DNA of 47,648 nucleotides from a virus. This document shows positions 6,441-31,384 of the stretch, piece by piece. The DNA is taken from IMG/VR virus record IMGVR_UViG_3300018428_003808, positions 1 through 47,648 of that record. The stretch is one strand, 5' to 3'. The notes under the pieces were generated by a model. The model worked only from the letters and a program-made list of their open reading frames with translations, was not told the DNA's origin and did not search any database. Position 1 is the stretch's first letter; each line of letters starts with the position of its first letter. The translations under genes were made by a program, and so were the position numbers.

Positions 6441-7089
6441 CGTAGGCGATAGTTGGGCGGCCGGTATTTGGGATATTCGCGGTGGTAAACACGTAAATAC
6501 TGGACCAGGTTATGTAAAACAATTAAACAAAATTGCTGAAGTAGATGTTATGTGGGGATGGAACAATCAAGAAGCCCTGTTTAATATTGCAAAGCATCAT
6601 CATGATTACGATGTAGTGTTATTCTTTGTAACAGATCCTTTTAGAGATATAACGAATCCCAAGAAACATTATAGTTTTTATGTAAACGACTTTTTAACTG
6701 CCGACGAACTAATAAAAGCAAACGAAACATTATTAGAATCAACAATACAATCAGCAAATTCTTTCGAAGCAAACATAAAACTTATAGGCGGATGTCATAG
6801 TTTAAAACACAGAAACGATAGTAACATAATTATTCACAGTGTTAGTGAATTAGTAAGTGATGGAAAATACAATCATCCTAGATTGTGGGATAGTGGATGG
6901 GGTGGTATGCTTAACTTTGATAATTGTAGTAAAGACATGTCACGTGTTTGGCTAGAAAACAGAGAACAACAATTAAAAATGGAATCAGAACCATTTCAGG
7001 AGTACTTTTGGCCTGACGGATATCATCCAAATGCATACAGTAATAAAATTTTAGGTAAAGAACTTGTCAAAATCCTTACATCCAAGTAA
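6427..7089 (+). CDS. SGNH/GDSL hydrolase-family protein
   Basis: The ATG at 6427 is chosen because it overlaps the upstream stop by 14 nt, as is usual here, and places the nucleophile block at the N-terminus. The 220-aa product has G-D-S-W at 7-10 (block I) and D197-G-Y-H200-P (block V), the expected Ser and Asp-x-x-His of the SGNH fold. This is the only one of seven family members in the window with a standard GDS. Such enzymes add or remove acyl groups on sugars or lipids. It has no signal peptide, so it would act in the cytoplasm. Confidence 0.65.
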   Translation: MRILSVGDSWAAGIWDIRGGKHVNTGPGYVKQLNKIAEVDVMWGWNNQEALFNIAKHHHDYDVVLFFVTDPFRDITNPKKHYSFYVNDFLTADELIKANETLLESTIQSANSFEANIKLIGGCHSLKHRNDSNIIIHSVSELVSDGKYNHPRLWDSGWGGMLNFDNCSKDMSRVWLENREQQLKMESEPFQEYFWPDGYHPNAYSNKILGKELVKILTSK

Positions 7090-8335
7090 AACATTTTGTT
7101 TACATCCGTTTACAGGACTTGCTACACGAGAAGATGGCGCAGTAAAAGCCTGTTGTCGTAGTTTGCCTGTTGGCTGGATACAAAATAACAGTTTAGAGGA
7201 AATTTGGAACAACGGTACAATGCGTGAAATACGCAGACAAGTGTTGTGTGGTGAACGTCCGGCTGCATGTGAACCTTGTTTTAACTTGGAAGACCAAGGT
7301 GTTGAAAGTTTAAGACAACGTCACATACGAGATAGTTTTCCAGATGCACGTTGCAACCTGTATCCTAACGCATTAGACAGTTTGCGTGATGATTACAGTA
7401 TGCCATTTGAATTTCCTACAATAGAAATCAAAATAAACAACTTGTGTAACCTCAAATGTCGTATGTGTAACCCACTAGATAGTACACAATGGAAAGACTG
7501 GCAAGAAGTTGAACAGTTTTACAAAGACGAAGGAAACTATCTAGTAGATGCTGTAAAAAAACTCAACCTAATGCAGCACCCATATGTAGGCTTGTTTGAA
7601 GAACGTGATGACTTTTGGGATAATTTAGAAAAACTTATTCCATATTTTAGACGTATTGAATTTGCTGGTGGCGAACCATTAATGGATCCAATGCATTATA
7701 AAATTTTAGATATGATGGCACCTTACGGCAAAAACATAGAACTAAAATATGCAACCAACGGAACTACACTGGGCATTAAAGGACGTAGTATACACGATTA
7801 CTGGCCTAAGTTCAAACGTGTAGTTGTAAATGTTAGCATTGACGGTATTGGTGATGTATATGAATACATAAGAGGCAATGGATCTTTTGAAGAAGTCGAA
7901 GAAAATATAAAAGTATTCAAAAGTTTTAGTAACGTAGACTACATTGTTGGAGCATTTACTGTACAAGCAAACAATATTTTACAACTACCTAGATGTATTG
8001 ATTATTTCTTAAATAACATGGGTATTGTGTTTTATTCACACAGAGTAACATATCCAAGAGCACTCAGTGCTCAAGTAATACCTCAACCGTTAAAGGAGAA
8101 AGTTATTGGAGAACTACAAACCATACAAAAAACCTTCCGTGATTATCCAATTGTACGAAGTAATCCTGCTCTTATATCTGTTACTGAGAGGCAAATATCC
8201 GACAACATTAACTTTTTAGAAGCAAAAGATTTGAGTCAGTATTGGAATGATTGTGTAAATTTTAACCGTGCATTAGATAAGACACGCAATCAAAACTTTT
8301 TAAATGTAAATCCGGAGTTTGTTCAATATGTATAG
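7064..8335 (+). CDS. Radical SAM protein with N-terminal twitch/SPASM-like domain
   Basis: TTG at 7064 gives 423 aa and a 26-nt overlap with the preceding gene. The N-terminal domain has C12, C30-C31, C62, C69 and C72 in an F-C-x-x-P-F / D-G-x-V-x-x-C-C / S-L-E-E-I-W-N pattern, typical of auxiliary iron-sulfur (twitch/SPASM) domains but placed ahead of the core. The core has C128-x3-C132-x2-C135 for the SAM-binding 4Fe-4S cluster and an A-G-G-E-P motif further on. Proteins of this layout are known as N-terminal-twitch radical SAM proteins; substrates are undefined. The genes at 14082, 27531 and 28792 share the layout. Confidence 0.85.
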   Translation: MSKSLHPSKTFCLHPFTGLATREDGAVKACCRSLPVGWIQNNSLEEIWNNGTMREIRRQVLCGERPAACEPCFNLEDQGVESLRQRHIRDSFPDARCNLYPNALDSLRDDYSMPFEFPTIEIKINNLCNLKCRMCNPLDSTQWKDWQEVEQFYKDEGNYLVDAVKKLNLMQHPYVGLFEERDDFWDNLEKLIPYFRRIEFAGGEPLMDPMHYKILDMMAPYGKNIELKYATNGTTLGIKGRSIHDYWPKFKRVVVNVSIDGIGDVYEYIRGNGSFEEVEENIKVFKSFSNVDYIVGAFTVQANNILQLPRCIDYFLNNMGIVFYSHRVTYPRALSAQVIPQPLKEKVIGELQTIQKTFRDYPIVRSNPALISVTERQISDNINFLEAKDLSQYWNDCVNFNRALDKTRNQNFLNVNPEFVQYV

Positions 8336-9224
8336 AGTTGAAAATCGCTGGAACCATTACGCAGATAGTGTAAAAATTGAATGGAATTTGGGTAAACGCT
8401 GTAACTTAGATTGCACATATTGTCCTGCAGAAATACATGATAATTTTTCACCGCATACAAGACTAGACAAATTAATGCACACAGTTGATAAACTTGCAAA
8501 TCTTAAAAATGCAAGAATTAGTTTCACAGGAGGAGAACCATGTGTTCATCCTGCAATAGAAGATTTGCTAGAATATGCAAGACCCAAAATTAAATGGCTA
8601 AGTGTTACAACTAATGCAACACGAACATCAGATTTTTATGAAAGAATACCTGTAAATTATATTGTTTTTAGTTTACACTTGGAAGATGAAAACTGGAAAC
8701 GTAGTTTAACTAATATTATTGGGTTTGCTTCAGGCGAAGAAAGTATTAAATTTCCTAAAGACTACCATGTTGCTATAATGGCACACCACGATCACATGGA
8801 TAAAGTAAAATATGCAGCAAGTTTTTTAACAGGACATAATATATCTTATACAATAAGACGTATACGTTGGACAGAAAAACATGATTGGTTTGATGATTTA
8901 CGTTATAACGGACAAGATTTAGAATGGATATTAAATAACACTGCAACTGCACAGCCTAATACACTAGTTGACGACTTTGAATTAGTACATGCTAACGATT
9001 TAATAAAAGAACATAGAAATCAATTCAAAGGCTGGAATTGTAATGCAGGATTAGAAAGTTTAATGATTAACTGGAACGGCGATGTACACAGAGCCACTTG
9101 TAGAGTAGGTGGCAGTTTAGGAAATATATACGACGATACATTTGAACTACCTGAAGAGCCAATTACATGCACCCGAGAATGGTGTACTTGTGCAGCAGAT
9201 GTGAATATTACAAAATGGAAGTAG
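8328..9224 (+). CDS. Radical SAM protein with C-terminal auxiliary Cys cluster
   Basis: ATG at 8328 is preferred over a TTG at 8319, since GGAG at 8313-8316 is properly spaced only for the ATG. The 298-aa product has C25-x3-C29-x2-C32, a T-G-G-E-P motif, and a C-terminal region with F-K-G-W-x-C, a G-N-I-Y turn and a final C-x4-C-x-C, an arrangement like SPASM/twitch auxiliary clusters. It is closest in layout to the products at 13168 and 25980. It overlaps both neighbours and forms a block of three consecutive radical SAM genes. Confidence 0.85.
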   Translation: MYRVENRWNHYADSVKIEWNLGKRCNLDCTYCPAEIHDNFSPHTRLDKLMHTVDKLANLKNARISFTGGEPCVHPAIEDLLEYARPKIKWLSVTTNATRTSDFYERIPVNYIVFSLHLEDENWKRSLTNIIGFASGEESIKFPKDYHVAIMAHHDHMDKVKYAASFLTGHNISYTIRRIRWTEKHDWFDDLRYNGQDLEWILNNTATAQPNTLVDDFELVHANDLIKEHRNQFKGWNCNAGLESLMINWNGDVHRATCRVGGSLGNIYDDTFELPEEPITCTREWCTCAADVNITKWK

Positions 9225-10261
9225 ATGCAATTAAATTAACCAAACCAGAACCTATGATGGTAACTTGGGATATTGGACGTAGGTGTAACTTTGATTGCAC
9301 TTATTGCGAAAGTACTCGACACAATACATATAGTCCACCTACAAGTTGGAATGAATTGTGTGACACTCTTGATTTTATTAAACAATACACTCAATTATAC
9401 AATCAACCCAATGCTAACATAGGATTTACAGGAGGCGAACCTACGGTAAATCCAGACTTTTGGCGTTTTGTGGAAAAAATACGTAACGAAACTGATTTCC
9501 AAATTGGAATGACCAGCAACGGAACATGGCCAGAAAAACATATTGACTTTATTAAAGACAACTTTGTAGGTATTACTTTAAGTTATCATGCTGAAGCAAA
9601 CTTGTTTAGTAAAGAAAGAACAATACGCAATGCAGAATTAGTACACAATGCAGGAATTTGGTTAACAGTTAATGTAATGATGCACACAGACCATTGGGCA
9701 GAATGTGTTGAAGTGCATGAAAAATTAAAAGCATTGGGCATTGACAGCAAACCTACAATGATAGGCGACGGTAATTTTGGTTTTACAGAATGGTTTGACG
9801 ACAGCGAAGGTGTAAAACGTAGAACAAGTCATCCATATACAGTAGAACAGCAACAATGGTATCTTACTGAAAAAGGATTACCTACAGACATTGTAGATAA
9901 AATAGCAAATGGCACTGAATTACCACGGGGTTGTTGTGGTGCTAGAAGTATAGAAGGCAGTTGCAACGGCTGTTGGCAAAAAATAGAAGCAGTAAATACC
10001 AACTTTAAAGGATGGTATTGTGCTGTTAACAAGTATTTCTTACACATTGATCAACACACTGGAAAAGTATATCATCATCAAACTTGTCAAACTAGTTTTA
10101 GTGGAAGAGTAGGACCAATTGGTAGACTATCAAATACAGAAGGTATATTAAATTATGCATTTGAAAATAGAAATAGAATAATCAAATGTCCAAAACAGCG
10201 TTGTGGATGTGGAATGTGTGTTCCAAAAGCAAAAAGTTTGTCCGTGTTTAAGACATTATAA
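9215..10261 (+). CDS. Radical SAM protein with extended C-terminal Cys cluster
   Basis: I use ATG at 9215 (348 aa, 10-nt overlap), since the upstream ATG at 9167 would add residues with no counterpart in relatives. C24-x3-C28-x2-C31 binds the SAM cluster and T-G-G-E-P follows. Later come a C-C-G and C-N-G-C group, then F-K-G-W-x-C, a V-G-P-I-G turn and a terminal C-x4-C-x-C-x2-C. The product at 12123-13181 has the same order, so the two are paralogues on opposite strands. The extra cysteines suggest one or two auxiliary clusters, as in peptide- or sugar-modifying enzymes. Confidence 0.85.
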   Translation: MEVDAIKLTKPEPMMVTWDIGRRCNFDCTYCESTRHNTYSPPTSWNELCDTLDFIKQYTQLYNQPNANIGFTGGEPTVNPDFWRFVEKIRNETDFQIGMTSNGTWPEKHIDFIKDNFVGITLSYHAEANLFSKERTIRNAELVHNAGIWLTVNVMMHTDHWAECVEVHEKLKALGIDSKPTMIGDGNFGFTEWFDDSEGVKRRTSHPYTVEQQQWYLTEKGLPTDIVDKIANGTELPRGCCGARSIEGSCNGCWQKIEAVNTNFKGWYCAVNKYFLHIDQHTGKVYHHQTCQTSFSGRVGPIGRLSNTEGILNYAFENRNRIIKCPKQRCGCGMCVPKAKSLSVFKTL

Positions 10262-10272
10262 ACTGCGCACTT

Positions 10273-10280
10273 AATAAATA
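10273..10280 (+). promoter_or_regulatory. Late-type box directly before the ATG at 10285
   Basis: AATAAATA matches NATAAATA fully. It is followed by CAGC and the ATG, with the predicted transcription start within 1 nt of the A. No SD is seen. The 10262-10284 gap is the only intergenic gap in the 5745-12163 plus-strand run. Confidence 0.6.
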
Positions 10281-10284
10281 CAGC

Positions 10285-11031
10285 ATGAACGCTCATAATT
10301 TTTATTTAGATCACAAAGATCATCCTGTAACACCTAAGCCATTGCCTGACTACGATGTTATCGATCAAGCAAAATGGATATTATGTGGCAACGGATATCA
10401 GTGGGTCGAACTAGATACTATTTTTAATGTTCATGCATGGCAAGAAGATTCTAAGTTTGCCGAATACCAATATGTTTCACATAGAGATATTCATATAGGT
10501 GAAGGAACACATGTTGGTTGGGAAAGTTGCACACTTCACGGTATTGATGTTGACAAAACAAATGTATGGCAAACCTATGGTTATGAAAAAGAACCAGAGT
10601 ATATTTGGACTTCACTAGGCAAAAAATGTAAAAATATAAAGAATTTTTTTAAAAATGTTTTTCCAAGTGAAAGTTATGCACGTATTAGATTTATGCGATT
10701 AGCACAACTCGGAAGTGTTAGTCCTCACAATGATTTTAGTCCAGTAATCGATATGGAAAATATATTAGATGCTCCGTTGCCAATAAACGTAGCAATTGAT
10801 CATCCAAAAGATTGTTATATGACACTAAAAGATTCAGGTTGTGTGCCTTTTGCTACTGGAAAAATGTTTATGGTTAACATTTTTAAAGATCATAGTGTAG
10901 TTAACTTGAGTAGACAAAGTCGCACACACTTGATTGCACATTGTCATTTAGGTAACAGGAAACAAGACTTCTGTGAAATGCTAGTTAGAAGTTACGAAAA
11001 ACAACATGAACGTATATCAAGCCAAATTTAA
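10285..11031 (+). CDS. 2OG-Fe(II) oxygenase-like protein (Asp/Asn hydroxylase type)
   Basis: This 248-aa protein has H148-x-D150 (in SPHND), H203 (in KDHSVVN) and R213 (in RTHLIAH), consistent with the iron and 2-oxoglutarate ligands of an aspartyl/asparaginyl-hydroxylase-like jelly roll. An R-I-R-F strand precedes the first ligand, as is usual in that family. It follows three radical SAM genes and has its own late-type box, so it may be expressed separately from them. The substrate is unknown. Confidence 0.65.
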   Translation: MNAHNFYLDHKDHPVTPKPLPDYDVIDQAKWILCGNGYQWVELDTIFNVHAWQEDSKFAEYQYVSHRDIHIGEGTHVGWESCTLHGIDVDKTNVWQTYGYEKEPEYIWTSLGKKCKNIKNFFKNVFPSESYARIRFMRLAQLGSVSPHNDFSPVIDMENILDAPLPINVAIDHPKDCYMTLKDSGCVPFATGKMFMVNIFKDHSVVNLSRQSRTHLIAHCHLGNRKQDFCEMLVRSYEKQHERISSQI

Positions 11032-12163
11032 AAGTAAAAAATGGTGTGTCTGTATTGTAGATGACACAGACAAGTATAAAGGCATGGCAAAAGAAATTGT
11101 CAAAAATCGTGCTGACTACACTATTACCAATCTAACCGGCATGGGTTATGATGTTTATGTTGATAAAAATGAAGACAAAATGCTTCGGTTAGTAGCAGAC
11201 AAGTATACATATGCAGTAGTATCAAGTGCTGCTAATGAATTTACCAACGGTGACAGTTTTTTTGCAAACCATCCTACGTTTGATGGTATAATAGGTCATA
11301 TTTTAGATGGCGGTGATGCATACTTTGGTTTACACTATCAATGTTACAGTATAAACTTAGAGAACTATAAAAAAATAGGATGTCCTAAAGTTGGTGAAGA
11401 TCAACCATTATCACCGCACAGTCAGATTGCTCCTTTTAGAAGTCACACAAATGTACACGATGATTATTTGCCTACATGGTTAAACATGGGCACAAAACAA
11501 TTATTGTATAAACATAAAATTCACGGTTGGAATTTAATTAGTGCATTCTTATCTATTGATTTGCCAATTGAAGCATATGATACAATTTGTAGATCTAACA
11601 AACACTACATTTACAGAGAAGAAATCGATCCTTACGTATTTCAAAAATACAATTACTGCTTAACACAACATGTTCATACGCAAGCAACTGGCGAAGCAGA
11701 GAAGTATCCAAGAAAATACAACACTCCGATTAGACATTTAGTTACTATTGCTAATGCCGATGCAGCAAAAAAACGTTTACACGGACACGAAGCAGAAATT
11801 ATTTACTATGATTATAATCAACGTGCATTAGATAATGTAGGCGGTGGATATTTATTAGATCCTTTGCACGAACCTGAAAAGTTTATTCAAATTATTCCTA
11901 CTGAAGATCAACATGCAACCGTAATCGATATGAGTAATATATTTGCATACGAAGGTACTGTTGCTTTTTTACCTTTAGAATATAGATTAAAACAAGAAAA
12001 TAAATTAATTAAACTTTTAAAAGACAACTTGCCTCATGCTACTGTTATTTTTGATAAACGTGCAGCAGAAGGTATAGAAAAATGGAAACCCGAAACAGGA
12101 TGTGTTAAAGATTTAACTTATACTAACTGGGAAGATCTTGACTTGCCTTCATGGCATCAATAA
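11006..12163 (+). CDS. Unrecognised 385-aa protein
   Basis: I do not recognise a catalytic family. The start ATG at 11006 overlaps the upstream gene by 26 nt, and the end overlaps the convergent radical SAM gene by 41 nt. The first half has alternating strands and a GGDAYFGLHYQC segment with neighbouring Tyr and Asn residues. The second half (from about 240) has repeated hydrophobic strands ending in D/N, resembling a Rossmann-like fold. Given its neighbours a glycosyltransferase or nucleotide-sugar enzyme is possible, but no DxD or glycine-rich loop is clear. It has no signal peptide or membrane segment. Confidence 0.6.
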   Translation: MNVYQAKFKSKKWCVCIVDDTDKYKGMAKEIVKNRADYTITNLTGMGYDVYVDKNEDKMLRLVADKYTYAVVSSAANEFTNGDSFFANHPTFDGIIGHILDGGDAYFGLHYQCYSINLENYKKIGCPKVGEDQPLSPHSQIAPFRSHTNVHDDYLPTWLNMGTKQLLYKHKIHGWNLISAFLSIDLPIEAYDTICRSNKHYIYREEIDPYVFQKYNYCLTQHVHTQATGEAEKYPRKYNTPIRHLVTIANADAAKKRLHGHEAEIIYYDYNQRALDNVGGGYLLDPLHEPEKFIQIIPTEDQHATVIDMSNIFAYEGTVAFLPLEYRLKQENKLIKLLKDNLPHATVIFDKRAAEGIEKWKPETGCVKDLTYTNWEDLDLPSWHQ

Positions 12164-13181
12164 ACAATTCTTTATTACGTGCCTTTGGCGCACATAATCC
12201 GCACCAACAACTAGATTTTTTACAAACTACACCGTTGTTATGCATATTTTCTAAAATACTATTAGTATCATACAAATAACCAATTGGTCCAACATTGCCA
12301 TTGTAATTCATTTTACAATCTTTGTTAGTGAATACTTCTCCAGTTACTTGTCTAATATACAAAAAGTAATCTGCTACACTGCAATGCCAGTTTTTAAAAT
12401 TGTTGCCTTCTACATAGTTTGTCTCACATCCACCAGCACACAACGTATTACCGCCGCAACATGCTCTACCTGTTTTACTTAGATTAAGTCCTTTTGCTAA
12501 ACCATATAAAATTTTATCTTTTGTTGTAACTTTACGTCCAATTAGGTATTCACTTTGTTCAGCGTTGTAATTAAAACGCATGTCTAACCAATGATGATCA
12601 ATCTGTCTAGCATTGTATTTTATATCATGCTGTTTGCACCATTCAATAAATTCAATACAATCATCCCAATGTTTAGGGTGCATCATTACACTAACATGAA
12701 ATGTTTTTTGTTTGTCTATAAGATATAAAATATTGTTTTTTACAAGTTCTTTGCTTTTAGCAGGTGCCTCTGGATGATAACTTATTGTAAAATAATCTAT
12801 ATATTCAACTACCCTATTCCATAAGTTAGGACCAATAACAGCGTTTGTAATAGTTGCTACACCCATATACCAATTGTAGTTTTTACGCTTTTCGTTTACA
12901 TACTTTAGTATATCTAAAATTCTTGGATGAAAAATACTTTCTCCGCCTTGTATATTTAAATTTGCAAAACGCTGTGATTCTGGACGCTGCTGCATTTTTA
13001 CATCAACATACTTGTAAATAAAATCTACAGTATCTAAACATTCTGCAAATGCAGGATGCTCTGTTTTATTGTCATGACCGTCGCCGCAATAACTGCAATC
13101 TAAATTACACTTGAGTGTACTTTCCCAAGCAATTTGAAAACTTATTCTTTTTGCCGGTATTAATGTATCAAAAGTAGTCAT
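12123..13181 (-). CDS. Radical SAM protein with extended C-terminal Cys cluster
   Basis: The 352-aa protein has C25-x3-C29-x2-C32, a Q-G-G-E-S variant of the GGE motif, a C-C-G-G and C-A-G-G-C group, F-K-N-W-x-C, a V-G-P-I-G turn and a terminal C-x4-C-x-C-x2-C. This is the same order as the plus-strand gene at 9215, so the two are a duplicated pair. It is last in a minus-strand run from 19107 and overlaps the upstream radical SAM gene by 14 nt. Confidence 0.85.
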   Translation of the reverse strand: MTTFDTLIPAKRISFQIAWESTLKCNLDCSYCGDGHDNKTEHPAFAECLDTVDFIYKYVDVKMQQRPESQRFANLNIQGGESIFHPRILDILKYVNEKRKNYNWYMGVATITNAVIGPNLWNRVVEYIDYFTISYHPEAPAKSKELVKNNILYLIDKQKTFHVSVMMHPKHWDDCIEFIEWCKQHDIKYNARQIDHHWLDMRFNYNAEQSEYLIGRKVTTKDKILYGLAKGLNLSKTGRACCGGNTLCAGGCETNYVEGNNFKNWHCSVADYFLYIRQVTGEVFTNKDCKMNYNGNVGPIGYLYDTNSILENMHNNGVVCKKSSCWCGLCAPKARNKELFIDAMKASQDLPS

Positions 13182-14085
13182 TGCATTTCCATTTGGTTAC
13201 AATAGTTTCGCCGGCACACGGACACGTTTCTTGTTCACATATAACTGGGTTAATTTCAAAACCTTTTAGATTGTATATATTTAAATTTAAATCTTGTCCA
13301 CAGTTACCTTTTACATTACCATAAGAATCAATTTTTACAAGGTCAACACCCAAATTACATTTCCATCCTTTAAAATGATTTAAATTGTTATTAATTAAAT
13401 AACTGTTGTTGGTTTCAAGATTGCCATCTATCATATATTGTGTGTGCGGACGTCTTAATACTTTATTATACCAAACTAAATCAGGATAACGTTTTATAAA
13501 AGTTTCCATGTATTCCAATTGTTCACTGTTATACATATGATTGCCATTATATACTACTGTCTTTGCAATAATAGGAAACAAATTGTTACTTGTTTTACAT
13601 TGTTCAACAATGTCTTTACACTTTTCAAAGTGTGCCGGATCCATTAATACATCAATGTTAACTTCAACACCGTTTTCATACAACATGTCGGCAACGTCAA
13701 TACAATGCTGTATATTGCTAAATTCGTGATGCACACTGATGTTAACTACATCAAAACTGCTCCAATATTTTTTCCACCAATTCATTTTTTTACTTGCATT
13801 TGTACTGATGTTGATTGTTACATCATGTGCCATTTTAATGTTGGTGCAAAATCTTGGCAGGTGTTTCCACAGTGTCGGCTCACCGCCAATTAAATAAAGT
13901 CTTGTTTTTCTGCCATGACGTTTTATATATGTTAACAATGCTTTGTCAACTGTTTCAATGTCTGGCCATAAACGATTGCCTTCGTTACTACCAGGAAAGC
14001 AATAGTTACATTTGAAATTACAAACGTTGCCCAATTCAAATTCAATTGTAAAATCTGTATCTAAATTTTGTATACTGTGTATCAT
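13168..14085 (-). CDS. Radical SAM protein with C-terminal auxiliary Cys cluster
   Basis: The 305-aa protein has C22-x3-C26-x2-C29, an I-G-G-E-P motif, and near the end F-K-G-W-x-C, an N-I-Y turn and a C-x4-C-x-C group. It belongs with the products at 8328 and 25980. Its start overlaps the stop of the preceding gene as ATGA. It lies between a twitch-type and an extended-type radical SAM gene, so all three architectures occur in one operon and may act on one substrate in sequence. Confidence 0.85.
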   Translation of the reverse strand: MIHSIQNLDTDFTIEFELGNVCNFKCNYCFPGSNEGNRLWPDIETVDKALLTYIKRHGRKTRLYLIGGEPTLWKHLPRFCTNIKMAHDVTINISTNASKKMNWWKKYWSSFDVVNISVHHEFSNIQHCIDVADMLYENGVEVNIDVLMDPAHFEKCKDIVEQCKTSNNLFPIIAKTVVYNGNHMYNSEQLEYMETFIKRYPDLVWYNKVLRRPHTQYMIDGNLETNNSYLINNNLNHFKGWKCNLGVDLVKIDSYGNVKGNCGQDLNLNIYNLKGFEINPVICEQETCPCAGETIVTKWKCNDYF

Positions 14086-15464
14086 AATAAATGTGCAAGT
14101 TCAGGAAACACTGTTTTAGCACTCACACCCCTAATTGCGTCTAACTTGTTTACATATTCTTTAAAGCCTGGTAACAAATGACTGTTATCAGCACTGTCCA
14201 TATGATTTAATATTGCTTCCCAACGTTTCCATCCGTAAGGATTAGTAGTAAAGAAACTGTTGTCATTTAAATGTACTTGTTCAAGCCAACCTTTAAAACT
14301 GTAAAACAATTCACGTATTTCTTTTTTATCTTCTTCTGGTAAAATTTGTATACTTAGAAATGTTGGAATATAAAGCAGATGCATATTCATTAAACCGCCG
14401 CCTGCCATAATACCACGTACTTCTTCGGTGTTAACTTTTCTAAATTCACTGCTTATTTTCCAGTGTACAAAATCTGGCAAATGTTTTATATTAAAAATTT
14501 GTAATGCAGTTGCAATACTAGGACGAATATTATCCGGTGTATTGTCTAGCATGTGCAAGTTGCTTTCTACAGTTTCCCAATTGGTAGGATAACGAATATA
14601 ATTGTTTCTCGGACCAGCAGCATCCATACTGATTCCAACTTTAACTAATTCAAAATTTTTCCACAAATCAATAAGTTCTTCATCTACAAGTATACCATTT
14701 GTGTTATATCGTAATCTAATATGTTTGTTATGTCCACTGCGAACAATTTCTTCAATAAACTTCTTATGTTCAGCAATCATAAGAGGTTCGCCGCCAGCAA
14801 AGTAAACTTCTTCTAAATAAGGTATTTGTTTATACAGTTGATCCCAAAAGATTTCATTTTCATGCCACTTGTTGTCAAATGCATTTTTATCCCATTGCAT
14901 TTGTCGTTTTACTTCAGGATCTTCTAACTGTGGTTCAAGTACTTTCCAATCTTTGACCCACTTACTACTATCATGCGGTGAACACATCACACATTTAATA
15001 TTACAAGTATGCCCTAAACGTAAATCTAAATATTTAATTTGCTCTCGCACTTTACCATCTTCGGTAGTATTGTTGAGCAAGTCTTCGACTTTTACACCAC
15101 GCTCAATCCATGTGCTGGTTTCCCACAAGCGTTTACTAACTACACCTTTGCTTTCTTCTGCAAAACATTTTGTACAACTTGCAGGAACTTCTCCTGCCAT
15201 CATAGTGCGTCTTGTTTCGCACATATAATCACTGTTCCATGCATCCATAGGTGTTGTAGATGCAAAATTTACAACTTGTCCTTGATTTTTTACAAGTCCT
15301 ACTGTGTGATCTGTACCAGCGCCGCTTGCGTTAGCACTGCAACACAACCGCATATCTCCGTTAGGTCGTGTTGCCATATGAATCCACGGTAAGACACAAA
15401 AACTTTTTGTTGTACGGTCTTCTAAACCAGTTTTAAATAATTCAATAAAATTTTGTGTGCTCAT
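14082..15464 (-). CDS. Radical SAM protein with N-terminal twitch/SPASM-like domain
   Basis: The 460-aa protein has an N-terminal domain with C23 in F-C-V-L-P-W-I-H, C41-C42 after N-G-D-M-R-L, and C97-x2-C100. The core has C154-x3-C158-x2-C161 and A-G-G-E-P. It is longer than the relatives at 7064, 27531 and 28792 because of an insertion between the two cysteine sets. The start ATG overlaps the upstream methyltransferase-like stop by 4 nt, suggesting coupled translation. Confidence 0.85.
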   Translation of the reverse strand: MSTQNFIELFKTGLEDRTTKSFCVLPWIHMATRPNGDMRLCCSANASGAGTDHTVGLVKNQGQVVNFASTTPMDAWNSDYMCETRRTMMAGEVPASCTKCFAEESKGVVSKRLWETSTWIERGVKVEDLLNNTTEDGKVREQIKYLDLRLGHTCNIKCVMCSPHDSSKWVKDWKVLEPQLEDPEVKRQMQWDKNAFDNKWHENEIFWDQLYKQIPYLEEVYFAGGEPLMIAEHKKFIEEIVRSGHNKHIRLRYNTNGILVDEELIDLWKNFELVKVGISMDAAGPRNNYIRYPTNWETVESNLHMLDNTPDNIRPSIATALQIFNIKHLPDFVHWKISSEFRKVNTEEVRGIMAGGGLMNMHLLYIPTFLSIQILPEEDKKEIRELFYSFKGWLEQVHLNDNSFFTTNPYGWKRWEAILNHMDSADNSHLLPGFKEYVNKLDAIRGVSAKTVFPELAHLL

Positions 15465-16069
15465 TTGCGTCCTATTAGCAAGAATCTATTGTACAGCGGC
15501 AGTTCTAATGTTTCTTGCTTAATTATATATGACAATCCACTGTGGGCAGCAAAATCTTCAACTGTGTCAAAACAGCGTATATGCTCAGGCAAATCATAAT
15601 AATTGTTGCTTTGCAATACTACAAGACTGTTGTCAGGAACACGCTCAAGCCAAATATCATATTGTTCTTGCGAGATATGTTCTGTACTGGTATTGATTAC
15701 AATTTCGGGATCAAACTCGTATTCGTAAGTACACATATCAGCAGTAACAGCACGAAAGTTGCCAATCATTTCTTGACGTTTGCAAATCATGTTTGCTATT
15801 TCTTCGCAACTTTCGTCAATATCAATACTGCGAACAAATCCAGTGTTAATACTGCTGTTAAAAAACATACATGCTAATACACCATTCCAACCGCCGTGAA
15901 TAACAATGTTCTGTGGTACGCTTTCGTCTACGCAAGAAAACAAACTGTTTATAAGCCACTCTTTGCTTTTAAGTTGTCCTTTCCAGAAACTTTCTAGTAC
16001 ACTATAAGGATTTTCACTGTTGCGTACAGCGTCCATCCAAAATGCCACATCATCTAGTTCTACAAGCAT
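15461..16069 (-). CDS. Divergent class I methyltransferase-like protein
   Basis: This 202-aa protein matches the C-terminal part of the protein at 1-660: a K-G-Q-L-K-S-K-E-W-L-I helix, an H-G-G-W-N-G loop at the SAM-binding position, and I-D-I-D-E at the end of the next strand. A later E-I-V-I-N-T-S-T-E-H segment corresponds to the strand carrying the usual motif IV. It lacks the N-terminal repeats of the other copy. The glycine loop is unusual, so methyl transfer is inferred from the fold only. Confidence 0.6.
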   Translation of the reverse strand: MLVELDDVAFWMDAVRNSENPYSVLESFWKGQLKSKEWLINSLFSCVDESVPQNIVIHGGWNGVLACMFFNSSINTGFVRSIDIDESCEEIANMICKRQEMIGNFRAVTADMCTYEYEFDPEIVINTSTEHISQEQYDIWLERVPDNSLVVLQSNNYYDLPEHIRCFDTVEDFAAHSGLSYIIKQETLELPLYNRFLLIGRK

Positions 16070-19107: not shown

Positions 19108-19122
19108 AAGTATACTTATGTT
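19103..19122. promoter_or_regulatory. 20-bp perfect palindrome forming two divergent starts
   Basis: AACATAAGTATACTTATGTT is its own reverse complement and contains both start codons (minus ATG at 19107, plus ATG at 19118). Each strand reads CATAAGTA, one mismatch from the late box NATAAATA, with the predicted transcription start exactly on the A of its ATG. It could be a symmetric bidirectional leaderless promoter or a repressor operator. Confidence 0.6.
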
Positions 19123-20490: not shown

Positions 20491-20491
20491 T

Positions 20492-22114: not shown

Positions 22115-23122
22115 ATGAATATTTATAGCACAAACGAGTGGGATCCACTAAAAAAGGTTGTAGTCGGAGTTGCTGATTATTGCCGTATTCCAGAAATGGA
22201 TAAAAGTTTAAGATGTATTAATTATGCAGACAAAAAAGACGTTAGCGATGTTGTCTCAGGATTATACCCAGATCAAGTTGTTGAAGAAAGCAACGAAGAT
22301 CTTGAAACTTTTGTTAAATTTTTAGAAGGAGAGGGTGTAGAGGTTGTAAGACCTAAACGCACTCCGGAAGTTGAATATTACAACTACTGTCCACGTGATA
22401 CTGTGTTTGTTCATGGAAAAAAACTCCTTGCGGCTCCAATGAGTCTTACTGCAAGAGACAAAGAGTTTCATCATATGCTACCGCATATAGCAGGTGTTAA
22501 TGCGCCCCCACGTATTGATCGCACCGACCTATACGATGAAACATGTGTAGGCGACCCAGACCGTCTTGCACTAACTGAAGTAGCACCATGCTTTGACGCT
22601 GCTAATGCTATCCGGGCTAACGATGACATATTATATTTGGTTAGTAATAGTGGAAACAAAGCAGGTGCTGCTTATTTACAAGAATGGGTAAATGCACCAG
22701 ACCGTAGTTATCAAGAATCAACCACTGATTACCGAGTACACACATTAGAAAATGTATATAGTTACATGCATATTGACAGCACTATTGCATTTTTAAGAGA
22801 AGGACTACTTCTTGCTAATCCAAGTAGAATTAAAAGCAAAGATGTACTACCAGGTCCTTTTAAAGATTGGGATGTTATTTGGGCACCTGATCCTGTAGAT
22901 GCTGGACATTATCCAGGATTATGTAACAGCAGTATTTGGACTTGGAATGTTAACTTGTTTAGTGTTAATCCTAATCTAGTTGTATTAGAAGAACATCAAG
23001 AACCGACTCGTAAAGCACTAGAAGCACACGGTATTGAATGTGCTATGTTGCCATTGCGTCACGCACGTACATTAGGTGGGTGCTTCCATTGCTGTACACT
23101 AGACTTGGTTAGAACACCTTAA
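22115..23122 (+). CDS. Glycine-amidinotransferase-like enzyme
   Basis: The 335-aa protein has the N-E-W-D-P-L-K start, C-P-R-D (D95), F-D-A-A-N (D161), M-H-I-D-S-T (H219) and a C-terminal G-C-F-H-C-C-T, in which C326 aligns with the nucleophile of L-arginine:glycine amidinotransferase. All residues needed for amidino transfer from arginine appear to be kept. In secondary metabolism relatives amidinate aminocyclitols or amines, so here it may put an amidino group on an amino-sugar or peptide. It has its own box-ATG start and is flanked by SGNH genes on the opposite strand. Confidence 0.85.
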   Translation: MNIYSTNEWDPLKKVVVGVADYCRIPEMDKSLRCINYADKKDVSDVVSGLYPDQVVEESNEDLETFVKFLEGEGVEVVRPKRTPEVEYYNYCPRDTVFVHGKKLLAAPMSLTARDKEFHHMLPHIAGVNAPPRIDRTDLYDETCVGDPDRLALTEVAPCFDAANAIRANDDILYLVSNSGNKAGAAYLQEWVNAPDRSYQESTTDYRVHTLENVYSYMHIDSTIAFLREGLLLANPSRIKSKDVLPGPFKDWDVIWAPDPVDAGHYPGLCNSSIWTWNVNLFSVNPNLVVLEEHQEPTRKALEAHGIECAMLPLRHARTLGGCFHCCTLDLVRTP

Positions 23123-23915: not shown

Positions 23916-23946
23916 TAAATATATGGGTATTTAATGAACTTAGGAG
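23914..23946 (+). promoter_or_regulatory. Late-type box and SD for the gene at 23954
   Basis: AATAAATA at 23914-23921 matches NATAAATA. AGGAG at 23942-23946 lies 7 nt before a TTG at 23954 and decides that non-ATG start. The leader would be about 27 nt. Confidence 0.6.
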
Positions 23947-23953
23947 AACACTT

Positions 23954-25282
23954 TTGCAAGACTGGTTTAGCGGGCTATACTTTTTACCTAGAAATAAATT
24001 GTTACCGGAATTAATAAAACATGACGGAAGCAGAACACCGTTAAATCATATGAACAAAATTGAAAGCCTAATGGATCTTGTAAAAGAAAGTTTTATTTAC
24101 GATAATCCAAATCCTACAATCATTTACAACGGCACACATTATATTCCTAATTTAGAAAAACTGTTTATTACTCCTGCACATAAAAAAGTATTACAAGAAA
24201 ACACAGTTGACTTTTTGTTTGTTGAAGTACTAACACACTACATTCCAAATGATAGAGGAGTGTTAGAACCGCATATTTTAAAAATAGACAACGACGATGA
24301 TGATATGGAAAAAATTCGTTGTTACGAATTAGACAGTCTTGATGCTTGGGCAGCAGAACATGGATTAAACATTCATGTACATTGTACAGATTTTATGTGT
24401 ACCGAACATTATAAAAAAATATACAAAAACGTAACACTTAAAAATACAGATTTGTTTATTGCATGGTGCAGTGATAGATTTAAAATACAAGAAGATTTTA
24501 ATGAACGAGGTTGCGGACCAAATGACGAATATCCGCCAATAAGTCATTTAGCAGAAAAGATTGAATACAAATTTTTTAGTGCAGCATGGAGATATGATCC
24601 AAGTCGTCATTTTATTACCAGTCATTTAGCAGCAAAAAATTTGTTAAAAGAAAGCAAAGCAAGTTTTTACTTTGATGTACAACGTGAAGATATGAAACAA
24701 CGTATGTGGTTTGATTGGAATAAATTTGAACAAAAATATCCTCAAGTTGCAAATTCATTATTAGAAGGCAATGAAAAACTTAGACAAGTAGTACCTTTGA
24801 GTTTTGAAGTTAAAAATCCACAAGCATGTAGGGCAAGAGAATCAGATCCTGATTACGATACACCTGTACAATTTAATAAACGAAAAACACAAGATCCTTT
24901 AGATACATATGAACAATGTTTTTGTGTAATTGTAAATGAAAGTAGAGTTACACAACCTTGGCCAAACATGAGTGAAAAAACTTTTAATGCTATTAAAAGT
25001 ATACGTCCATTTATCGAAGTTGCTGCGCCTGGAACAATAAAAATGTTACATCAAATGGGTTTTAAAACTTTTGAAAAATATTGGCCTGAGGATTATGATA
25101 ACATTGTAAAAAACACTGATAGATTAGTTCGTATTACAGAAGTTATTGATTACATAAGCGAATTTAGTTTAGACGAAATGCGTGAAATGTATAAAGAAAT
25201 GTTACCCGATTTAATGCACAATTATCATAACTTGAAAAGATTAAGAAAATTTTATGGCAAATTAAACAAAAGAGTCAATTAA
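23954..25282 (+). CDS. GT10-like glycosyltransferase (long form)
   Basis: The start is TTG at 23954, supported by a well-spaced AGGAG; upstream ATGs are out of frame. The 442-aa product ends with a N-M-S-E-K-T-F-N-A-I region, R-P-F-I-E-V, and G-F-K-T-F-E-K-Y, the same order as in the products at 16060 and 17989. The N-terminal half is longer and not recognisable. I infer a GT-B transferase that uses a nucleotide sugar. It overlaps the convergent SGNH gene by 21 nt. Confidence 0.55.
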   Translation: MQDWFSGLYFLPRNKLLPELIKHDGSRTPLNHMNKIESLMDLVKESFIYDNPNPTIIYNGTHYIPNLEKLFITPAHKKVLQENTVDFLFVEVLTHYIPNDRGVLEPHILKIDNDDDDMEKIRCYELDSLDAWAAEHGLNIHVHCTDFMCTEHYKKIYKNVTLKNTDLFIAWCSDRFKIQEDFNERGCGPNDEYPPISHLAEKIEYKFFSAAWRYDPSRHFITSHLAAKNLLKESKASFYFDVQREDMKQRMWFDWNKFEQKYPQVANSLLEGNEKLRQVVPLSFEVKNPQACRARESDPDYDTPVQFNKRKTQDPLDTYEQCFCVIVNESRVTQPWPNMSEKTFNAIKSIRPFIEVAAPGTIKMLHQMGFKTFEKYWPEDYDNIVKNTDRLVRITEVIDYISEFSLDEMREMYKEMLPDLMHNYHNLKRLRKFYGKLNKRVN

Positions 25283-25987
25283 TTTTTTTGCCCAATATGT
25301 GTGTGCATCTAATTTATGATGCCAATACTGTTGTCCTTCAACATCGTATCCCATGTTAATACAATGATCGTAAAAACTTTCTTCTGCATTATCCCAATGC
25401 AAAAAATTATCTTTATCTAACTTATCAATATAATATTTGTATCGTGGTCTGTTTTCACAACACTGAAATGCATTTCTAAAAACATATTTGTATCCGTTGC
25501 TTTTTAAAAACTCTTGCGTTTGTATAATGTTATTATATCTATTAATATCCCATTGCGTATGATTAAGAAATAGTTGGTTACTTAATATGTCTAAGTTTTT
25601 TGTCCATTGCTTAGGTGCCCAATCAGGATAGTGTTGAGGATGTAGGTGTGTTACATTAGTATCAGGCTTAAATGGAATAAAATCAAAGGCGCTGGTTTTG
25701 CCTTCATCATAAAAATATTCGGTTCTATCGGTGCCTGTCCAGTGTATTAAAAACAATGTGCGTTTTGCTAGTTCTTTATTGTCTAATATCCAATACAGCG
25801 TTGTACGTGCAATGTAGTCGTTACTAGCACCAGGATAAGCAATGTTTGTGTAACTACAATTTAAAGCCTTTGCAAACTGTGCACCAAAACTATTTTCTCT
25901 ATTGTAATTGCCTTCGCCAATGCCGCTGCCTTCAATTTCGCTACCAGCACTGTGACTACAACCATTTATTAATACATGATCAAACAT
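25262..25987 (-). CDS. SGNH-hydrolase-like protein
   Basis: The 241-aa protein has L-I-N-G-C-S-H-S-A-G-S near the N-terminus, N-I-A-Y-P-G-A-S-N (block II-like), L-I-H-W-T-G-T-D-R and a C-terminal D-A-H-T-Y-W-A-K-K-L. It is last in the minus-strand operon that starts at 34897, and overlaps the radical SAM gene by 8 nt. Confidence 0.65.
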   Translation of the reverse strand: MFDHVLINGCSHSAGSEIEGSGIGEGNYNRENSFGAQFAKALNCSYTNIAYPGASNDYIARTTLYWILDNKELAKRTLFLIHWTGTDRTEYFYDEGKTSAFDFIPFKPDTNVTHLHPQHYPDWAPKQWTKNLDILSNQLFLNHTQWDINRYNNIIQTQEFLKSNGYKYVFRNAFQCCENRPRYKYYIDKLDKDNFLHWDNAEESFYDHCINMGYDVEGQQYWHHKLDAHTYWAKKLIDSFV

Positions 25988-26945: not shown

Positions 26946-27538
26946 AATAGTTCTAATATTCTTTCTGCAAACACTTGATGAGATTTTTCGTCAGGGTGTC
27001 CGTCACCGGGTATAGGTTGATAATAAAATTTTTTAGTTTTAAAAATTAAATCAATACGCACTGTGTTCCATTTTTCTGTTGCTTCTAATATATTATTATC
27101 TCGACGATTTAAACAATTAATAACTTTTCTACATCGAATTTGTTTTTTTAAATATAAATTTGCTAAATTCATATACATTAATGTATCTAATGTATCATCT
27201 GTTTCGGTGTGGTACTTGTTATAAAATCTTAGCCAAGTATTATCATTTGTCCAACTTGCTAATTGATTCCACATATGTCCGTTGTATATACCTCTACGTG
27301 TAGCATCTGTCCAATTTATAATTACAATATCGTTAGTTTTAATGTCTGTTTGTAAAACAGTTGCAGCAATTTGTTTTTGAGATGCTCCGCCGTCGGCTTT
27401 GTTTAGCACTTCTTTGTTTATTGCATTGGCTACTAAAGACGGAAATGCATACTTACTAGGCAAATCATCTTGTTCTTTACAGTCAGGTAATCCGTACCCA
27501 TATGTATAACTACAACCAAATGCAACTATTCTAGACAT
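26942..27538 (-). CDS. SGNH-hydrolase-like protein (short form)
   Basis: The 198-aa protein has I-V-A-F-G-C-S-Y-T-Y-G-Y-G, D-G-G-A-S-Q (block II-like), I-I-N-W-T-D-A-T-R-R and G-D-G-H-P-D near the end. It is the shortest of the family here and close to a minimal SGNH domain. It overlaps the upstream gene by 8 nt. Confidence 0.65.
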   Translation of the reverse strand: MSRIVAFGCSYTYGYGLPDCKEQDDLPSKYAFPSLVANAINKEVLNKADGGASQKQIAATVLQTDIKTNDIVIINWTDATRRGIYNGHMWNQLASWTNDNTWLRFYNKYHTETDDTLDTLMYMNLANLYLKKQIRCRKVINCLNRRDNNILEATEKWNTVRIDLIFKTKKFYYQPIPGDGHPDEKSHQVFAERILELL

Positions 27539-28799
27539 GTTTTCTTAACCATCCTAGTTCAGGAAATACTGCCCAAAAATCTTCTTTGCGATGCACATCT
27601 AATGTGTGATTTTTTTGAAAGAATTGATTTAATTTTTCTTGGTTGTATTCACCCATGTTCATAAATTGTAACACACTGTCAATATGCCCTAATACTTCAC
27701 GTACCATGTTTTCATCTTTGCATTTTTCGTATGCCCATTTCTTATAATCAATATACTTGGCACGTAGTTCACGCTTGTATTCTTCTGGTATATAATCAAT
27801 ACGCATAAAGTCAGGACCAGTTAACACGTTGAGTCTGCACTTGTCAATGTCTACAAGTCCACGCTCTACCCAATCCATATGAAAGTCTGGAAAATTCCAA
27901 ACATTGTACAAACTAATAGTTGGTGTAATTTCAAAATGTACATGAGGTACACGCTCTAACATTTCGATACGATTTTGTTCGATTTGTTGCCAGTCTGTTC
28001 CGTGGCGCATAAATTCTGCTCTAGCACCATTTGCATCTAAACTTGCACTAACTTGTACATCATCAAACTGTTCCCAATAACTGTAAATGCTTTTGCTTTT
28101 ATAACGCATGTTACTAAAGTTTGTTGTATAACGCAATCTTACATCTGTTTTACCATTAGCAATCCATTCGTCAAGAATTTTGTAATGTTCATTTGTAATA
28201 AGCGGCTCACCGCCTGCCCAATACACTTCTTCTACATCAGGCAAATACTTTTGTAAATTTTCCCAATAGTTGTTTTCTTTTGCAATGTTTACAACAGTAC
28301 TACCATTGTTTTTTAACATGTTGGCTATTTCATGTTTACCATATAATTCACCATGTTCTTGTGCATGTAAACTACTAAGTTCAGGACCGCAACTACGGCA
28401 CTTCATATTACAAATATTACTAAAACGCACATCCATATATGCCATACGCATATCAGTAAGTGTGCCGTCCTCTTTGGTTTTTTCTACCAAGTCAAAATGC
28501 TTGTCACCAAACCATTCGTTGCTGTTTTTACGCAGTGTCCAAATCCATGTGCTGTTTTCAAGTTCATAGCAACGTTTACAAGTATCTAATTGTTTACCGT
28601 TGAGCATGGCAACACGCAACTCTTTGTAACGTTCACTATTCCACACTTCCTCAATAGTGTTTTCTTTCAAGTTACCAAAAGGTTGATCACTATCTGCAAT
28701 ACAACAAGGCAAAGCACGACCGTCCGGCCAGGCATGCATGTGTATCCAAGGCAGTATGCAAAAGGCACCGTCTTCTTTTAATAATTTTTGTTTATCCAT
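27531..28799 (-). CDS. Radical SAM protein with N-terminal twitch/SPASM-like domain
   Basis: The 422-aa protein has C14 in F-C-I-L-P-W-I-H, C32-C33 after D-G-R-A-L-P, E-E-V-W-N-S, and C74-x2-C77. The core has C130-x3-C134-x2-C137 and A-G-G-E-P. Together with the upstream gene (28792), which has the same plan, it forms an adjacent duplicated pair that overlaps by 8 nt. Confidence 0.85.
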   Translation of the reverse strand: MDKQKLLKEDGAFCILPWIHMHAWPDGRALPCCIADSDQPFGNLKENTIEEVWNSERYKELRVAMLNGKQLDTCKRCYELENSTWIWTLRKNSNEWFGDKHFDLVEKTKEDGTLTDMRMAYMDVRFSNICNMKCRSCGPELSSLHAQEHGELYGKHEIANMLKNNGSTVVNIAKENNYWENLQKYLPDVEEVYWAGGEPLITNEHYKILDEWIANGKTDVRLRYTTNFSNMRYKSKSIYSYWEQFDDVQVSASLDANGARAEFMRHGTDWQQIEQNRIEMLERVPHVHFEITPTISLYNVWNFPDFHMDWVERGLVDIDKCRLNVLTGPDFMRIDYIPEEYKRELRAKYIDYKKWAYEKCKDENMVREVLGHIDSVLQFMNMGEYNQEKLNQFFQKNHTLDVHRKEDFWAVFPELGWLRKHV

Positions 28800-30012: not shown

Positions 30013-31384
30013 TTGCTTCCTTACACAGCGCAAAAAAGTCTGCCATTTCAGGAAATGCTGCTTCAAAATCTACATTACGTCTACGATCTTGTTCTTTAAA
30101 GAAGTTCCAAAAGTCTTTTCGTCCTTCTTGTATTTTTTGCTCGTCATACTCAGTTGTTTTCATATAACTCACAACACGTCTAAACTTTTCATATTCCATG
30201 CTGCTAAATCCAGTCTTATAACCTTCTGCAACATTTTCTTCAATAAACTTTAAATGACTTTCCATATAAGGCATATAAGTTTCTTTAGGTAGAATGTTTA
30301 TATCGTACTGCAATGGCTCTTTTAAATATGGTGTATCAAAATGAATACGCTGCCAACGTCCGCTGTTTACATCATTGTATTTGGCACGCCATTCCAAGAT
30401 TTTTTCTAGCAGTGTTTGAAATGTTGTAACACTAAACAAATTAAACGTAATCATAAACGTTACAGGTGCAGTTGTATTTGTTAAGAAGTAATCTAAATTA
30501 CGTTCAAATACTTCTAAATCTAAACCGTCACGAATATATTCTGCACGTTTATCCCAAGTGTCAATACTTGTAAACAATTTAAATGCTTTGATTTTATTTT
30601 GACTAAGCAAACTGTTTACGTTATCTGTAAATTTTGCAAGTTGACGTTCTTTACCGCCTAAGTTACTGTTTACATTTAGTTCAAGATGCGGCTTAGGATC
30701 ATTTTCAAGTTCTTCAAACAATCTGTATGTGCTTTTTTGAATAGTAGGTTCGCCGCCTGTAACACGCAAAATGTTTAGCGTTTTACTAACTTCAGGCCAC
30801 CACTTCCACCATGCACGTACATACGGATTGCTATCTTCTTCATATACTTTAAACCAATCAACATCGCATCTATGATTTTTTACCATATCATAAGGACCGT
30901 GCTGACGTATTTCTTGATGGTATCTACTGCTGGCTTTTGGATGACAATAACCACAACGGAAGTTACATTCATTGCCAAACGAAATCTCAATGTACTCAGG
31001 GTTTACATCAAAGTCCCAAGGGTTCAACTTAACTTCGTTTAGTCTTTCTTCGTTGTAAATGCTGCCACTGCGAATATGTCTGTCACTGATAAAATCAGGA
31101 CCCATGTTTTCTACATTCCAACAATACTGACATCCTGCACACTGCTTGCCTTCTAACATCTCTTTGCGTTCTTGCTTTTTGTGCTTTGTGTTATGCAACG
31201 CACTTGGATTGGTTAGTAGTTCATCTACGTCAATTTGATGTGGCGCAGGATGATAACAACTGTGTGTTTCACCAGTTTGCAAATAAATTGTAGTGTGATA
31301 CCATTTAGCAAAGCAAAACGTAGGCGAAAAGTGCCTTTTTGTAATGTCGTTAATATATTTTGCTTTATCTGTTTCAAATGACAT
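30002..31384 (-). CDS. Radical SAM protein with divergent N-terminal Cys domain
   Basis: The 460-aa protein has C24, C43, C82, C85 and C88 ahead of the core, without the C-C pair of the other N-terminal twitch members. The core has C140-x3-C144-x2-C147 and T-G-G-E-P. It probably belongs to the same N-terminal-auxiliary group but binds its extra cluster differently. It overlaps the glycosyltransferase-like gene upstream by 11 nt and the next radical SAM gene downstream by 11 nt. Confidence 0.8.
   Translation of the reverse strand: MSFETDKAKYINDITKRHFSPTFCFAKWYHTTIYLQTGETHSCYHPAPHQIDVDELLTNPSALHNTKHKKQERKEMLEGKQCAGCQYCWNVENMGPDFISDRHIRSGSIYNEERLNEVKLNPWDFDVNPEYIEISFGNECNFRCGYCHPKASSRYHQEIRQHGPYDMVKNHRCDVDWFKVYEEDSNPYVRAWWKWWPEVSKTLNILRVTGGEPTIQKSTYRLFEELENDPKPHLELNVNSNLGGKERQLAKFTDNVNSLLSQNKIKAFKLFTSIDTWDKRAEYIRDGLDLEVFERNLDYFLTNTTAPVTFMITFNLFSVTTFQTLLEKILEWRAKYNDVNSGRWQRIHFDTPYLKEPLQYDINILPKETYMPYMESHLKFIEENVAEGYKTGFSSMEYEKFRRVVSYMKTTEYDEQKIQEGRKDFWNFFKEQDRRRNVDFEAAFPEMADFFALCKEANER

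Follow-up and report, generated by a model that had tools for sequence, protein, structure and literature searches.

What does a phage make with ten radical S-adenosylmethionine (SAM) enzymes (rSAMs) encoded in one region beside its tail fibres? The question is raised by the IMG/VR virus record IMGVR_UViG_3300018428_003808, which was analysed over its full length (hereafter the window) and in which genes are named by their first position. The enzyme families, catalytic residues, conservation, co-inheritance and position of this system can be read from the sequence, and the reading tentatively favoured here is that of a soluble phage pathway which builds a guanidino- or amino-sugar and attaches it to a virion protein. 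Ten rSAMs represent a lower bound for this virus, of which the record is a fragment of 47,648 bases.

Ten radical SAM genes and their co-inheritance

Each of the ten open reading frames (ORFs) contains a single canonical CxxxCxxC motif at the place where a sequence-only reading of this DNA had located it, while two of the starts given there, 8328 and 9215, are internal ATG codons of ORFs opening at 8319 and 9167. Chance occurrence of the motifs is ruled out by shuffling of the 45 predicted proteins, ten of which carry the motif against a mean expectation of 0.15 and a maximum of 2 in 500 shuffles. The Pfam family PF04055 matches all ten products, seven of them above the curated cut-off and three (12123, 27531 and 30002) below it, and profile searching in all six frames of the record revealed exactly ten rSAM places. 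The motif cysteines and the SAM-binding GGE are invariant in the alignments, placing the proteins in the radical SAM superfamily. The clustering of ten such genes in one phage, as claimed by the sequence-only reading, is thus confirmed.

The ten enzymes are of two kinds, which form separate deep lineages with five window members each in a tree of 466 viral sequences. The proteins with an N-terminal twitch domain (N-twitch; 7064, 14082, 27531, 28792 and 30002) belong to family NF033640, with scores of 306-392 bits against a whole-protein cut-off of 170 bits, and share four invariant N-terminal cysteines. The C-type proteins 8319, 9167, 12123, 13168 and 25980 score only 27-39 bits with this model and group with phrog_13987/1802; the long members have eight invariant cysteines beyond the three of the SAM cluster, which leaves room for two more Fe-S clusters, so that three clusters are predicted for 9167 and two for the N-twitch proteins. 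NF033640 names a domain layout and not a reaction, and the window combines five of its members with five of another lineage. Two trios of equal make-up (N-twitch, short C-type, long C-type) are present, 7064/8319/9167 (trio 1) and 14082/13168/12123 (trio 2), and in the viral tree 9167/12123 and 27531/28792 are sister paralogues. A viperin-type antiviral function was also considered and rejected, the matches reaching 18-47 bits against a cut-off of 180.

Scans of IMG/VR yielded 116 related viral loci (36 + 80). Every locus holds two or more rSAMs and none a lone copy (0/116), ruling out solitary auxiliary genes. All of the large relatives have trio 1 (54/54), and 37/54 have both trios. Eleven contigs share an almost constant order of genes between the fibre genes and 4240, or up to where the contig stops, apart from local insertions or losses. 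A divergent twelfth contig (G031) keeps 30002/28792/27531/25980 and the DegT gene. A near-identical contig (G001) has eleven PF04055 matches in 39.9 kb and extends past the left end of the window with more, and on whole related contigs the number of rSAM matches rises to 21-22 (64-170 kb) and, at most, 25 (77 kb). The sequence-only reading had named homologues occurring singly in most related phages as its refutation; this condition is contradicted by the loci, and a clustered, co-inherited multi-enzyme system is supported.

As medians per gene, identities to the window fall at 56-85% in the rSAMs and reach 85% in the amidinotransferase and 82% in the epimerase; most fibre genes lie at about 44-53%, and two GT10-like genes, like most SGNH-like genes, at 33-43%. 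The dN/dS of the rSAMs, in pairs with usable synonymous distances, is 0.05-0.08, which indicates purifying selection. Since ten ancient rSAM paralogues are kept in this way beside fast-changing fibre genes, the chemistry, rather than the fibre, is the constant part. The relatives add genes for CTP_transf_3 (cytidylyltransferase), sulfotransferase, FkbM methyltransferase, GNAT, nitroreductase and further hydroxylases. Away from its main block, one phage contig (G010, ~37,000-42,000; L118, L119) has epimerase-like, rSAM and amidinotransferase-like (35%) genes a second time.

The carrier and its Bdellovibrionota kin

Wherever a contig extends to the tail fibres, the block adjoins them. Two phages of 470-490 kb, Agrobacterium phage Atu_ph07 and Sinorhizobium phage Phosso, encode proteins 50-53% identical to the neighbouring protein 42570; the long structural protein of the window matches RaK2/121Q-like phages. 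The window itself has no capsid gene; a gp23-type capsid gene (PF07068) is found on three related contigs (G031, G021 and G010). Judged by these contigs and by 42570, the carrier is assigned to the T4-superfamily jumbo-type phages as a relative of Atu_ph07 and RaK2. Both Atu_ph07 and Phosso have rSAM genes at the same site beside a fibre gene, but of other subfamilies. Among sequenced phages no DNA-level relative of the right half of the window was found; tblastn searches of phages gave no match for rSAM 9167 or the glycosyltransferase-like 31374, and for 28792 matched only Vibrio phages K566/K567, at 23%. The jumbo Vibrio phages K566, K567 and VS1 (OZ196521, OZ196593, OK905446) encode one to three distant N-twitch-like rSAMs. 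A gene for an extracellular solute-binding protein, located at the end of one phage contig (L154:1674-2756, G013), might hint at the host.

What the sequence-only reading misses is that the same kinds of enzyme also occur as chromosomal arrays in Bdellovibrionota. NF033640 scores above its cut-off in 74/241 Bdellovibrionota genomes, and elsewhere in 2/185 Gammaproteobacteria, 1/190 Alphaproteobacteria (on phage-like contigs) and 1/198 Bacteroidota. Full-length relatives of 9167 among sequenced genomes were found only in Bdellovibrionota bins. One lies on a contig of 937 kb that also carries prfB, murA and serS-like genes (named by eye), in a cassette comprising N-twitch, C-type, 647-like and 15461-like genes. 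Relatives of five window genes, 14082 (up to 45%), 9167 (37%), 25980, 647 and 15461, stand together in one cassette; on Bdellovibrionota contigs the relatives of 14082 are 40-45% identical. When phage and Bdellovibrionota rSAMs are placed in one tree, the two groups are intermixed, the 77 cellular sequences entailing at least 42 label switches. This pattern indicates repeated exchange, which may have run either way. The bacterial arrays resemble the window in having the same rSAM subfamilies in a cassette, but differ in being chromosomal, with membrane proteins nearby.

These chromosomal N-twitch arrays (L258-L264 and L269-L275, in G035, G036, G041 and other Bdellovibrionota) also contain 5745-like ATP pyrophosphatases, and genomes G035 and G041 encode 13 and 18 N-twitch rSAMs above the family cut-off. 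One gene of L258, starting ILGLSCFYHDSAAALIKDGH, is carbamoyltransferase-like by eye. A Rickettsiales bin, MED657, was rejected as a cellular carrier: its contig (L267, L268) bears homologues of tail-fibre genes 36974, 36030 and 34550 beside many rSAMs, and was taken to be of phage origin, having been binned with a bacterial genome. The gammaproteobacterial bin MED685, which at first looked like a cellular carrier, was left as ambiguous.

The enzyme block and comparable systems

The genes of the block (Table 1) overlap or abut. Because the biggest gap is 46 bases, no separate precursor-peptide gene fits, and a cluster for ribosomally synthesised and post-translationally modified peptides with its own precursor was rejected on this ground and on the lack of RRE or PqqD domains in the ten rSAMs by Pfam, overlapping or distant peptides aside. 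No transmembrane-like segments are predicted in the proteins of 1-34,897, so that this region shows no sign of a flippase, a polymerase or a lipid-linked initiating enzyme.

Table 1. Features of the window, with the basis of each assignment
Position	Strand	Feature	Basis and occurrence
647..1963	-	Putative glycosyltransferase, paralogue of 31374	Homologue also in Bdellovibrionota cassettes
4240..4893	-	Asp/Asn hydroxylase-like cupin (sub-threshold)	In 54/54 large relatives
5745..6440	+	QueC-like N-type ATP pyrophosphatase, invariant zinc-type Cys	Sub-threshold Pfam; phrog_1550
7064..8335	+	rSAM, N-twitch, first of trio 1	PF04055, NF033640; motif CNLKCRMC; 54/54 large relatives
8319..9224	+	rSAM, short C-type (~300 aa, C-terminal Cys cluster), trio 1	PF04055; 54/54 large relatives
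9167..10261	+	rSAM, long C-type, 8 further invariant Cys, trio 1	PF04055, alignment; 54/54 large relatives
10285..11031	+	Asp/Asn beta-hydroxylase-fold 2-oxoglutarate (2OG) oxygenase	PF05118 30.2 bits, cut-off 22.6
12123..13181	-	rSAM, long C-type, sister paralogue of 9167, trio 2	PF04055, tree, alignment
13168..14085	-	rSAM, short C-type, trio 2	PF04055, tree, alignment
14082..15464	-	rSAM, N-twitch, trio 2	NF033640 392 bits
15461..16069	-	Putative methyltransferase-like protein, linked to trio 2	By eye, no Pfam match; 51/54 relatives, also in Bdellovibrionota cassettes
16060..17121	-	GT10-like putative glycosyltransferase	Pfam match below cut-off
17100..18050	-	NDP-sugar epimerase/dehydratase (SDR), invariant Tyr149/Lys153	Pfam, PDB comparison, alignment
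19118..19705	+	Mini DegT/DnrJ/EryC1/StrS aminotransferase, 195 aa, invariant Lys107	Pfam, PDB comparison, alignment
19666..22095	-	Three paralogous SGNH-like hydrolases (19666-20490, 20492-21310, 21307-22095)	GCS motif only; no Pfam match
22115..23122	+	Amidinotransferase, closest in PDB to StrB1; D161/H219/C326 invariant	PDB comparison, alignment
25262..25987	-	DUF6071 SGNH-like protein	PF19547 44.7 bits
25980..26945	-	rSAM, short C-type	PF04055; median 80% identity in 12 contigs
27531..28799	-	rSAM, N-twitch	NF033640 386 bits
28792..30066	-	rSAM, N-twitch, structure modelled (pLDDT 87.8)	NF033640
30002..31384	-	rSAM, N-twitch, best conserved of ten (85% median)	NF033640
31374..32315	-	GT-A-fold putative glycosyltransferase, DGDN motif	Predicted structure
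32889..34557	-	Two putative glycosyltransferases (32889-33737, 33727-34557)	By eye, DxD-like motifs; no Pfam match
34943..47648	-	Tail-fibre and baseplate region bordering the cluster (36974, 38506, 40440, 42570, 43206)	Profile/sequence matches

The closest PDB entry to 22115 is StrB1 (1bwd; 195.9 bits over residues 6-334), followed by HsvA (138) and arginine:glycine amidinotransferase (AGAT; 101), which are lower-scoring homologues with other substrates. Residues D161, H219 and C326, which form the catalytic Asp-His-Cys triad of the family, are invariant in 15 sequences. By its full-length homology and triad, 22115 resembles the StrB1-type inosamine-phosphate amidinotransferases. The aminotransferase 19118 is about half the usual DegT/StrS length and is kept at 56-73% identity in the clade; it is also found in cyanophage. 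The model of 31374 (pLDDT 86) has a GT-A fold with best matches to SunS/ThuS, and also to the PBCV-1 capsid glycosyltransferase, at low Foldseek TM-scores (~0.3), and a GT-A fold is likewise predicted for its paralogue 647. No PDB match was obtained for 5745. Among the Pfam matches obtained, none was to a cyclitol synthase, kinase or phosphatase, nor to genes for making a cyclitol by way of 2-deoxy-scyllo-inosose or from myo-inositol, in a contig that is a fragment and for which host enzymes could supply these functions.

The left end of the window (1-687) encodes ~17-residue repeats (LRKAVxExNLHSIFRLL) ahead of a methyltransferase-like part related to 15461. A repeat-rich protein at 2008-3579 evolves fast (26-37% identity) within the conserved block; it might represent a fibre as well as a candidate acceptor.

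The idea that ten rSAMs in one phage are unprecedented does not survive comparison with the Campylobacter phages CP220 and CPt10, whose 11 and 12 rSAM proteins were described in 2010 as an exchangeable module (PMC2853527). As in the window, these are T4-like phages with many rSAMs. Their exchangeable cluster joins five rSAMs with an amidinotransferase and sugar transferases; the row of genes in CP220 comprises the five rSAMs, the amidinotransferase, which is distant, and two sugar transferases. However, the rSAMs of these phages are only distantly similar, with no clear N-twitch protein among those of CP220 compared (best A3 score 13 bits), the amidinotransferase is 24% identical, and no DegT is annotated beside the rSAMs. 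Among sequenced phages an amidinotransferase at 65% identity is found only in cyanophage S-SCSM2R, where the operon SSCSM2R_301-310 (PQ898602) encodes it (64.7%) together with a mini-DegT of the same length as 19118 (52.9%), five annotated glycosyltransferases and, in place of ten rSAMs, a single one of another subfamily. The link between rSAM, amidinotransferase and sugar transferase thus recurs in three phage groups, namely this clade, S-SCSM2R and CP220/CPt10.

The host recognition cluster of pelagimyophages and cyanomyophages is a variable stretch next to the tail fibres that holds glycosyltransferases and rSAM cassettes and in the pelagimyophage type lies between VrlC and gp14 (PMC7029224). 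The window, which has tail fibres and glycosyltransferase-like genes, may be compared with it; there the rSAMs are mentioned as added cassettes, whereas in the window ten ancient paralogues form a conserved backbone. The aminocyclitol pathways of streptomycin (StrB1/StsC) and butirosin (BtrN) share with the window an inosamine-phosphate-type amidinotransferase, a DegT/StrS aminotransferase and a twitch-bearing rSAM, but the rSAM core of the window is not orthologous to BtrN and the genes for cyclitol formation were not identified. No paper describing N-twitch rSAMs in phages was found. What is new here is an rSAM system larger and better conserved than those described for CP220 and the pelagimyophages, a smaller version being already known from Campylobacter phages.

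Possible product and biological meaning

In the pathway favoured here, whose product, order of steps, acceptor and benefit we infer, the SDR epimerase, the mini DegT/StrS aminotransferase and the StrB1-like amidinotransferase would yield an aminated, guanidino-bearing sugar or cyclitol. The rSAMs, working in sets of one N-twitch and two C-type enzymes, could perform several C-H oxidations, epimerisations or couplings on it, and the 2OG hydroxylases, methyltransferase-like and SGNH-like proteins may trim it. Acting in the cytoplasm, the GT-A and GT10-like glycosyltransferases would then link it to a virion protein, of which a tail fibre is the most likely one; the decorated virion might gain altered receptor binding or shielding. 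This pathway is favoured because the enzymes are all soluble, there is no space for a precursor peptide, and amidinotransferase, DegT and glycosyltransferases are recurrent company. The sequence-only reading had proposed a multi-step pathway editing a glycan or a peptide; the neighbouring genes and their recurrence in the cyanophage favour the sugar chemistry. The ten enzymes might all act in one linear pathway, and the target might be the phage, the host surface, DNA or a free compound.

Several observations weigh against the guanidino-sugar pathway. No DegT or amidinotransferase was found in the Bdellovibrionota arrays examined, so many such rSAMs work without them, and in contig G031 neither a close amidinotransferase nor either of the trios is seen. 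None of the window rSAMs reaches the cut-off of any equivalog (functional) NCBIfam model, and several glycosyltransferase labels, as well as all SGNH labels except DUF6071, are sub-threshold or assigned by eye. In Atu_ph07 and Phosso no glycosyltransferase is annotated between the rSAMs near the fibre genes. The nearest folds to the N-twitch model of 28792 (pLDDT 87.8) are anSME (Z 11.8), BlsE (11.0), SkfB (10.7) and DesII (10.2), a mixture of peptide enzymes (anSME, SkfB) and sugar-nucleotide enzymes (BlsE, DesII), so that this predicted fold alone does not decide the chemistry. A match between the N-terminal domain of the N-twitch proteins and the auxiliary twitch domain of the aminocyclitol rSAM BtrN (E 1.7e-5) speaks for the pathway, but it is weak, and BtrN is one of few solved twitch proteins.

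The strongest competitor, though unlikely, is that the rSAMs act directly on amino-acid side chains in virion proteins, whether tail fibres or others, by epimerisation, cross-linking or C-methylation, and that the sugar genes are a separate module of the same variable region. The auxiliary Fe-S domain of the N-twitch family, a model resembling anSME and sactipeptide maturases, and the alternation of rSAMs with uncharacterised proteins beside the fibre genes of Atu_ph07/Phosso, with no annotated glycosyltransferases between, are all consistent with this; yet the 46-base maximal gap leaves no space for a precursor-peptide gene, Pfam finds no PqqD/RRE in the ten rSAMs, and the amidinotransferase and mini-DegT accompany an rSAM and glycosyltransferases in the cyanophage too. 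Less probable again is an alteration of a host surface glycan (O-antigen or capsule) that blocks superinfection or changes the receptor. A host-surface change was proposed for pelagimyophage glycosyltransferases, and the region resembles the host recognition cluster of those phages with its glycosyltransferases and rSAM cassettes (PMC7029224), but the block encodes no membrane protein, and no flippase, polymerase or ligase family was found in it by Pfam, which would permit only peripheral transfer onto existing lipid-linked glycans.

It is improbable that phage and Bdellovibrionota alike use such clusters to make a diffusible small molecule, such as an aminoglycoside-like antibiotic, a signal or a cofactor. 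StrB1-like, DegT/StrS and BtrN-like parts are typical of aminocyclitol antibiotics, and similar rSAM arrays lie on Bdellovibrionota chromosomes; against this stand the constant position at the tail-fibre side, in every contig reaching the fibres, and the lack of any exporter or resistance gene seen in the window. Least probable, by a little, is a hypermodified DNA base, for example 7-deazaguanine or a guanidino-type nucleotide, to which the QueC-like ATP pyrophosphatase 5745 and weak QueE-like matches of the C-type rSAMs might point. These matches are far below the cut-off, QueD/PTPS (PF01242) is absent from nine related contigs of up to 170 kb, which are fragments, and DNA modification leaves the glycosyltransferases, SGNH-like proteins and DegT unexplained. 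The 7-deazaguanine version was rejected, as of the set QueD/QueC/QueE only a QueC-like protein is present and PF01242 is missing from the nine incomplete contigs.

Phages rarely keep tens of kb of enzymes unless these pay. If the virions are decorated, the cluster would add a new layer to the recognition between phage and host, and would be a rich source of radical enzymes yet to be characterised. The question can be tested, since the gene set recurs in a cultured cyanophage and rSAMs are found at the same site in cultured rhizobial phages. A broader proposition, more doubtful than the guanidino-sugar pathway itself but less so than its competitors, is that an uncultivated aquatic clade of jumbo-type phages spends tens of kb on an rSAM pathway of 10-25 enzymes, from lineages held in common with Bdellovibrionota, making a novel radical-tailored guanidino-glycan shown on the virion. 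Should this be true, phages would be carriers and diversifiers of natural-product-grade radical chemistry that is also used by Bdellovibrionota. For this phylum, known for its bacterial predators, the strong link to N-twitch rSAMs points to an unexplored biosynthetic system.

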